Source: Microvirga lotononidis
GTDB lineage: Bacteria; Pseudomonadota; Alphaproteobacteria; Rhizobiales; Beijerinckiaceae
NCBI RefSeq assembly: GCF_034627025.1
Contig: NZ_CP141048.1
Location: forward strand, 806,001-870,000
Reading direction: 5' to 3'
DNA length: 64,000 bases
Both the position numbers and the translations under genes were made by a program. Below are positions 45,089-46,890 of this stretch, piece after piece; the stretch's first letter is position 1, and every line of letters begins with the position of its first letter. The notes under the pieces are model-generated. The model saw only the letters and a list, made by a program, of their open reading frames with translations, searched no databases and was not told where the DNA came from.

Positions 45089-46381
45089 TCAACCCTCAAA
45101 GGGGTTCTTCATGAGGATTGTGTCGTCACGCTCCGGCGAGGTCGAGAGCACGGCGACGGGCGCCCCGATCAGTTCCTCGATACGGCGGACATATTTGATG
45201 GCCTGCGCGGGCAGGTCGGCCCAGGAACGGGCCCCGGCGGTCGAGCCGCTCCAGCCCTCGATCTCCTCGTAGATCGGCTCGACGCGCGCCTGGGCGCCCT
45301 GGCTGGCCGGGAAGTAATCGATGGTCTCGCCATCGAGCTTGTAGCCGACGCCGATCTTGATCGTCTCGAAGCCGTCGAGGATGTCGAGCTTGGTGAGCGC
45401 GATGCCGTCGATGCCGGAGGTGCTGACGGTCTGGCGCACGAGCGTGGCGTCGAACCAGCCGCAGCGGCGCTTGCGGCCCGTGACCACGCCGAATTCCTTG
45501 CCCTTCTGGCCGATCAGTTCGCCGACCTCGTCGAACAGCTCGGTCGGGAACGGCCCCTCGCCCACGCGGGTCGTATAGGCCTTGGCGATGCCGAGCACGT
45601 AGCCGACGCCGCCCGGGCCCAGGCCCGAACCGGTCGCCGCCTGTCCGGCCACCGTGTTGGAGGAGGTGACGAAGGGATAGGTCCCGTGATCCACATCGAG
45701 CAGCGCTCCCTGCGCGCCCTCGAACAGGATGCGCTTGCCGGCGCGGCGCTGGTCGTCGAGCAGGCGCCACACGGCATCCATGTAGGGCAGCACCTTCGGA
45801 GCCACGGAGGCGAGTTCCTCGTAAATCGCGTCGGCGCTGAACTCGTCGAGGCCGAAGCCGCGGCGAAGCGCATTGTGATGGGTGAGCATGCGCTCGATCT
45901 TCTCCGGCAAGGACGAGAGATCGGCGAGGTCCATGAGGCGGATGGCACGGCGGCCGACCTTGTCCTCGTAGGCCGGGCCGATGCCGCGCTTGGTGGTGCC
46001 GATCTTCGTGCCGGCGCTGCCGCTTTCCCGCAGCGCGTCGAGCTCGCGGTGAACGGAGAGAATCAGCGTGGCGTTCTCGGCCACGCGCAGGTTCTCGCGG
46101 GTGATCGAGACGCCCTGCCCGGTGAGGCGCTCCACTTCGCCCGCCAGGGCATGCGGATCGAGCACGACGCCGTTGCCGATGACGGAGAGCTTGCCCGGAC
46201 GCACGACGCCGGAGGGCAGGAGCGAGAGCTTGTAGACCGTGCCGCCGATCACGAGAGTATGGCCGGCATTGTGCCCGCCCTGGAACCGCACGACCACGTC
46301 CGCCTGTTCGGACAACCAGTCGACGATCTTGCCCTTGCCCTCGTCGCCCCATTGGGCGCCCACGACAACCACGTTCGCCAT
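45089..46381 (-). CDS. purA: Adenylosuccinate synthetase
   Basis: 430 residues, the normal length. [17 protein letters not shown] (P-loop and catalytic Asp), [10 protein letters not shown] with the catalytic His, [36 protein letters not shown] and KLDILDG are all present. It makes adenylosuccinate from IMP, aspartate and GTP in AMP synthesis. ATG 46381 follows GAGG. A terminator-like hairpin with seven Ts lies only 16 nt upstream. Confidence 0.96.
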
Positions 46382-46397
46382 CGTTCAAGCCTCACAT

Positions 46398-46425
46398 AAA
46401 AAAACCCCGGCGCAAGGCCAGGGTT
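46398..46425 (-). terminator. Intrinsic terminator directly upstream of purA
   Basis: On the minus strand AACCCTGGC, loop CTTGC, GCCGGGGTT and then seven Ts (46404-46398). The stem pairs over nine positions with one G-T. It ends the candidate RNA described at 46398-46811 or acts as an attenuator in the purA leader. Confidence 0.8.
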
Positions 46426-46811
46426 GGGTCAAAAACCTTGCAAACCCTCATGGTGGATCGCGCGCCTCAGGTCAAGGCGGAATAAGCCTCGATCCCAACA
46501 TGATAGGCCGCACGCGCGGCGGGAATGTGTTTTCCGTTCTAAACCATGAAGCCAGCACCATCGGGCCCGCAGCTTGCGCTGCGAGCCGTCTGGTTCGAGG
46601 GAGGGTGCGTGGTGTCGCCCGGCTCGCTGTGAGTGTGAGAGTGGAAGAGCCGGACGGCGCCTCGCACGCGGTTCTTTTAGGCGTTGAGACTTGGACCAGC
46701 ACAGGGCTGCCAAGGGCCTCCGGCCGCAGGGGTGCGAAGCCCACGACCGGACCGCTTCCCGCCCCACACTGGCTGACGCCTCGCGAGCGCGCCCCTCGGC
46801 GGGCGGGAATG
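46398..46811 (-). ncRNA. Candidate structured RNA / long purA leader, about 410 nt
   Basis: The stretch lies between a good sigma70 promoter and an intrinsic terminator and has no credible coding frame. Internal pairing is dense: TTCCCGCCC (46756-46764) with GGGCGGGAA (46801-46809); GTGCG/CGCAC (46605-46609, 46663-46667) enclosing CCGGCTC/GAGCCGG (46619-46625, 46647-46653); and a six-base stem with a GCAA tetraloop at 46568-46583. I see none of the signature sequences of RNase P RNA, tmRNA, 6S RNA or SRP RNA. Class unknown. Confidence 0.5.
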
Positions 46812-46817
46812 CACAAC

Positions 46818-46846
46818 GATATAGCCAAGCCTATCCGCCCCGTCAA
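46818..46846 (-). promoter_or_regulatory. Sigma70 promoter for the purA-upstream RNA
   Basis: TTGACG (46846-46841), a 17-nt spacer and TATATC (46823-46818) on the minus strand. This is the best housekeeping-type promoter in the window; start of transcription is expected near 46811. Confidence 0.7.
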
Positions 46847-46890
46847 GAACAAAGTGAGAACATAACGTTCGCCCAGTCATGCTCTTCATG

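Follow-up and report, generated by a model that had tools for sequence, protein, structure and literature searches.

We identified, directly upstream of purA in Microvirga lotononidis, a stretch of DNA that is almost certainly a copy of a new family of non-coding RNA and not a leader of purA. Taken as a whole, the evidence is best read as a self-dimerising RNA family, SOS-controlled in Microvirga and acting as a homo-oligomer, a reading which we consider likely. Coordinates refer to the window, the whole stretch of 64,000 nucleotides that was analysed. A previous, sequence-only reading had described here a single candidate structured RNA of about 410 nt, running from a promoter to an intrinsic terminator and possibly representing an unusually long leader of purA. 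Its promoter, TTGACG-N17-TATATC, is present on the minus strand (46841-46846 and 46818-46823, with a spacer of 17 nt; a promoter scan program listed none at this locus), as are its GCAA-capped hairpin (46564-46587) and its terminator (46403-46425). Nevertheless, the ~410-nt stretch splits in two, comprising a copy of an RNA gene and a single-copy purA leader to which the terminator belongs, such that both parts are real and their union into one unit is not. When positions 46382-46870 were searched against 61 genomes (its own, 36 of the same genus and 24 of the same order), query positions 1-321 recurred many times in the genome of M. lotononidis and in many of the same genus, whereas positions ~336-489 matched as the purA leader. 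The dispersed repeat spans about 46550-46870, with the RNA gene copy at 46564-46861 on the minus strand; its dispersed nature and the LexA box at 46847-46861 were overlooked in the earlier reading. The features of the locus are as follows.

46847-46861, minus strand: LexA (SOS) box, GTTCTCACTTTGTTC, immediately adjacent to the -35 element and kept in all 30 aligned copies from this genome
46818-46846, minus strand: promoter, TTGACG, 17-nt spacer, TATATC; the -35 and -10 boxes align across copies
46564-46812, minus strand: structured RNA, its start placed from the -10 box and its 3' end provisionally set at the terminal hairpin
46756-46809, minus strand: helix P1 and the domain closed by it; 9 bp, 46801-46809 with 46756-46764, covarying
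46775-46793, minus strand: conserved hairpin with the palindromic loop hexamer TCGCGA at 46781-46786, a candidate kissing loop
46724-46745, minus strand: helix P2 hairpin, among the pairs counted in the alignment
46690-46715, minus strand: variable hairpin, different or enlarged in the alignments of other species
46605-46667, minus strand: long hairpin P4, with a variable, G-poor apical loop at 46626-46646; pairs from the alignment count
46564-46587, minus strand: terminal hairpin P5 with GCAA loop, among the pairs counted in the alignment
46382-46535, minus strand: purA leader, single-copy, with terminator at 46403-46425; a unit separate from the RNA family
45089-46381, minus strand: purA, adenylosuccinate synthetase (PF00709, E 1.6e-175)

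The leader and its terminator are kept in 25 of 25 aligned Microvirga purA loci, 10 of which include an element match and 15 of which have none (two of the latter, L021 and L022, end at a contig edge). Conversely, among 30 element copies fetched from the M. lotononidis genome, a terminator-like hairpin lies 3' of the element at the window copy only, and the other 29 have no U-tract terminator behind them. Since the terminator occurs in every aligned purA locus and behind just one of these copies, we assign it to the purA leader. At this locus, a single transcript of ~415 nt from the LexA promoter to the purA terminator is possible. The leader terminator sits directly before the ribosome-binding site of purA, and a GCAAGG...CCTTGC pair, read by eye from the alignment of the leader, could serve as an antiterminator; purA may thus be controlled by attenuation. 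The suggestion that the RNA itself is a regulatory leader or riboswitch of purA draws on the co-directionality of the two, and on recurrence of the same arrangement in some related genomes (e.g. G035 and G014). Given at least 33 other matches in the genome, of which the 29 fetched adjoin other genes, and the purA loci without a match, we regard this suggestion as extremely improbable.

At least 34 matches to the element were identified in the M. lotononidis genome (from the best 40 of 70 candidates scored; three of the 34 cover part of the query), and a pattern search with the core motif returned 33. Among the matches listed, all 34 are located on contig C1, which accounts for 4.97 of 7.32 Mb (chance of such an outcome with placement by length, 1.9e-6), with no element found on the other three contigs. 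Gaps among these listed matches are also more even than random (CV 0.52 versus a mean of 0.96), and no random set out of 20,000 equalled this evenness; such spacing could result from selection, or from recombination removing close copies. No replication-strand bias was detected (17 of 34 copies, with dnaA as a proxy for the origin). REP-like palindromes of the type GGCCGGGACAGGCCCGGCCATGACG were observed to flank many copies, on one side or on both (e.g. L034, L041 and L056).

Closer examination of the promoter revealed that a perfect GTTC-N7-GTTC box lies immediately next to the -35 element in each of the 30 aligned copies from this genome, a form identical to the published LexA motif of Caulobacter (PMC12700426). 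A motif scan across genomes yielded at least 120 stretches, 117 from Microvirga and three from 'Rhizobiales bacterium YIM 77505'. Among the matches listed, 117 exact-motif copies have 140 nt or more of upstream sequence, and the box abuts the -35 in 112 of these; when Microvirga alone is considered, the figure is 112 of 114. The genomes scanned here overlap with the set of relatives' genomes, and the two sets are not independent. The five copies without the box comprise the three from YIM 77505, a Microvirga copy whose box is damaged (L161), and another with no recognisable promoter (L186). The box lies 58-67 bp before the core motif, and its N7 varies between copies. Upstream of the chromosomal recA of M. 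lotononidis we found a box of the same form together with a second, one mismatch from the element's box, and similar boxes are found ahead of ssb and of a Y-family polymerase. Two recA-like genes are present in this genome (L081 on C3 and L082 on C1), each preceded by SOS-type boxes. Several of ten box sites inspected in this genome have no evident SOS gene, and GTTC-N7-GTTC boxes number 241 genome-wide, compared with 162 for the reversed pattern. Because such boxes also arise by chance, the case for a LexA box rests on position and conservation, which together make LexA control of the element promoters in Microvirga very probable. Outside this genus, only one of 56 copies has a LexA box (L277, genus g53), placed inside the promoter spacer, with a sister copy, L285, likewise possessing one; the box does not characterise the family at large. 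Upstream of 17 of these 56 copies we found TTCCTA or TAGGAA (1.3 in shuffles; e.g. L272, L335 and L334), perhaps the site of another regulator.

An alignment of 45 copies, taken from M. lotononidis and related genomes, supports a common RNA structure comprising 47 base pairs in seven runs, formed in 95.2% of cells, compared with 35-44% in slid control alignments. Two-sided changes produced 145 covarying cells, versus 46 in shuffles, and 17 of the 47 pairs show changes on both sides. From this count we left out 11 close duplicates of copies in the M. lotononidis genome, L032, which is 98% similar to the window copy, and variants of greater length or unusual form (L011, L013, L017, L023, L072, L078 and L080). 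In several longer variants (L011, L013, L017 and L023, and copies in G198 such as L273), an extra internal domain replaces the variable hairpin. While the 416-nt stretch folds better than 100 of 100 dinucleotide shuffles (z -2.96), the folding energy of the RNA part alone is not exceptional (z -1.23; 22 of 200 shuffles equally low), and the structure is therefore based on covariation and not on folding energy. A covariance-model search against Rfam 15 identified no family at gathering score at the locus (weak sub-threshold matches appear with E up to 10), and matches at the element in 13 relatives and 10 distant relatives were likewise all below the gathering cut-off. RNase P, tmRNA, 6S, SRP, HEARO, group II intron, OLE, ROOL and GOLLD are presumably all represented among Rfam families. 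This search, proposed in the sequence-only reading together with a comparison with relatives, agrees with its report that no signature of RNase P RNA, tmRNA, 6S or SRP RNA is visible; the first of its two options, an unrecognised non-coding RNA, agrees with the lack of an Rfam match, the covarying helices and the relatives in other genera. Its failure to see a credible coding frame was also borne out, as no frame is common to the 45 aligned copies. The commonest start codon position is shared by 28 of the 45, but stops and lengths are scattered, and we rejected a protein-coding gene, small-protein gene or type I toxin. A pseudoknot between GAGGG in the P1 loop and a 3' CCCTC, suggestive in single copies, was also rejected, as only 8 of 54 copies outperformed 95 of 100 shuffles.

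The apical loop of P4 differs between copies, both within and between genomes, and contains very little G (4.3% across the 45 copies). Such a composition would be expected of an open seed, and is consistent with a family of trans-acting, base-pairing sRNAs in which the variable P4 loop recognises mRNAs and dimerisation is secondary. The absence of conservation in the loop at either level speaks against a seed, as does the location of the strongest constraint in the structured 5' hairpin, and we consider a base-pairing sRNA family rather unlikely.

In this 5' hairpin, the most conserved part of the element, a 5-bp stem closes a loop of roughly nine bases, which provides the argument for a self-pairing RNA. 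With a positional script, all 60 copies in the set, drawn from 21 genomes (40 fetched order-wide matches and 20 earlier loci), were found to have a hexameric palindrome in the loop; this script reads a fixed stretch of the match, skipping GCGCGC, and is looser than a second, hairpin-finding script, which placed the palindrome in 58 of 60 loops, compared with a mean of 5.9 and a maximum of 14 for shuffled loops. In the remaining two copies (L388 and L395), the second script drew another hairpin, with the palindrome located at the same place. Seven hexamers were identified (TCGCGA, TCATGA, TCTAGA, TCCGGA, CTCGAG, CTTAAG and CGCGCG), with GC, CG, AT and TA as their central dinucleotides. Two or more of them coexist in six genomes, and TCGCGA is found in 45 of 45 aligned Microvirga copies. 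Of 4545 hexamers located elsewhere than in the loop, 95 are palindromes, and a single fixed GGCGCC accounts for 34 of these. Detection bias works against the discovery of palindrome switches, given that model R2 (see below) was built from TCGCGA loops only. The stem varies yet pairs, with GGCGC, GACGC or GGCGT set against GCGTC or ACGTC. The loop thus switches in sequence while remaining self-complementary, a feature of OLE, ROOL and GOLLD. Since adjacent bases cannot pair inside one hairpin, the constraint is most simply intermolecular, and from this pattern the RNA probably forms a kissing-loop homodimer. Alternatively, the palindrome might be kept for another reason, for example as the DNA site of a dimeric protein, all seven hexamers being two-fold symmetric as DNA. 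The free exchange of sequence under a constant symmetry, and the placement of the palindrome in a hairpin loop above a stem that is variable yet paired, render this explanation quite unlikely.

Phylogenetically, the element extends beyond Microvirga. Model R1, representing the 3' half, matched 4 of 149 family genomes. Model R2, representing the 5' part, matched 44 of 397 genomes, comprising 37 of 45 Microvirga genomes (the remaining eight having no R2 match) and seven from three other genera; among genomes of the order, R2 matched 7 of 397. A broader model, R3, matched 14 of 397 order genomes in six families, the element's own included, a total containing a single weak match in G517; 9 of these 14 genomes have two or more matches. 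At most 23 (R1) or 10 (R2 and R3) candidates were scored per genome, and copy numbers there are lower bounds; outside Microvirga, the models cover the first ~96 nt of the RNA. The window copy had no match in 72,556 plasmid or 50,697 phage records, two distant relatives of the element had none in plasmids, and an exact 21-mer of the core motif was absent from viral contigs. Two viral contigs fitting a looser pattern have a non-palindromic loop and coding-like sequence, with one weak model match of 21 bits, and were taken as chance.

From three related genomes, 20 loci were compared with the M. lotononidis copies: nine match one of these copies on both flanks, four on one flank and six on none, and L235 joins the flanks of two sites, as would be expected from recombination between copies. 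At the nine shared sites, the partner RNA copies are 69-84% identical; at eight of them, each of the two is closer to some other copy in its own genome (best 83-99%), a pattern whose underlying tree is unsettled in bootstrap, with L231 (83.6% to its site partner and 77.8% to its best own-genome copy) as the exception. This pattern is that of concerted evolution among copies. Gain and loss may also be followed at the aroC site (L035; 30 Microvirga loci), where 11 of the 27 loci whose upstream sequence is complete carry the element and the upstream flanks differ among sites without it; presence and absence inside one genus make it a ready system for such studies.

A dispersed family of this kind might also represent a mobile or selfish repeat of the non-autonomous type, with a copy number explained by self-propagation and not by a function in the cell, and with a LexA promoter that would time its activity to DNA damage. 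All 30 copies fetched from the M. lotononidis genome are intergenic, as judged by ORF scoring, and the next downstream gene runs in the same direction in 15 and in the opposite direction in 15; these dispersed sites, together with the patchy presence across Microvirga genomes and aroC loci, would suit a selfish repeat. Against this, the 59 proteins adjoining the 30 copies include one tyrosine recombinase and neither a transposase nor a reverse transcriptase, and two copies that were checked have no long terminal inverted repeats (at least 10 nt) spanning their ends. Further, sites are common to species, as at the nine loci shared on both flanks, and the element is lacking from the genome's other contigs (among the matches listed) and from plasmid and phage records. 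Selection on an RNA is instead indicated by the LexA box and by a palindrome that switches in sequence. On balance, we consider a selfish repeat unlikely.

Returning to a self-pairing, SOS-linked RNA, we propose the following mechanism. LexA would repress each Microvirga copy at its own promoter, as suggested by the box, and DNA damage would fire many copies together, resulting in a large pool of RNA of ~250-300 nt. The 5' hairpin hexamers of two molecules would then join through a kissing-loop contact, as their covariation implies, and the pool would most likely act as homodimers or larger homo-oligomers, providing the DNA-damage response with a scaffold or a protein-binding RNA rather than regulating purA. 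Many gene copies would provide dosage, and gene conversion might account for the observed likeness among copies. Any one functional proposal beyond a new family, LexA control and a kissing homodimer is tentative, and more doubtful than true. For example, the self-complementary loop, the even spacing on one replicon of the M. lotononidis genome and the LexA boxes led us to consider that nascent RNAs from ~34 evenly spaced loci might kiss and so bridge these loci, forming an SOS-switched nucleoid scaffold with the palindrome as a matching code; several such codes would coexist in some other genomes. We offer this last idea as a distinctly unlikely one.

Titles and abstract openings returned by searches of one open-access library gave no description of such an RNA, and the family lies outside Rfam despite at least 34 copies in one genome and matches in six families of the order. 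If correct, our reading would mean that a chromosome carries dozens of genes for a self-pairing RNA, placed in Microvirga under the DNA-damage repressor, with the loop hexamer providing an easily tested pairing code. The nine-base loop of HIV-1 SL1 has a 2+6+1 geometry, which is shared by 37 of 58 element loops. With this dimer initiation hairpin the element has in common a six-base palindrome in a hairpin loop (PMC5106843), an analogy only, as organism and RNA are unrelated. Like the damage-induced sRNAs of Caulobacter, the element would be an alphaproteobacterial non-coding RNA tied to DNA damage; none of nine mitomycin-induced sRNAs is reported there to have an SOS box (PMC6237742), whereas this box is the rule among Microvirga copies, and the element would thus introduce LexA-controlled non-coding RNA genes to the Alphaproteobacteria. 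Resemblance was also found to naRNA4 of Escherichia coli, an RNA from a repeated extragenic element that has been proposed to connect DNA segments; naRNA4 is, however, REP-derived, and the parts of its description consulted mention neither a LexA promoter nor a palindromic kissing loop (PMC6907758). Also comparable are OLE, ROOL and GOLLD, structured non-coding RNAs with self-complementary loops that switch palindromes, a covariation which, for OLE and GOLLD, has been argued to indicate intermolecular contact (PMC12286853). Having no Rfam match, the element is no member of these families, and it differs from them in its many copies per genome and LexA promoter in Microvirga, and in an oligomer deduced here from sequence. 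By analogy, it may work like OLE or GOLLD, and natural homo-oligomeric RNAs would then extend beyond OLE, ROOL and GOLLD.
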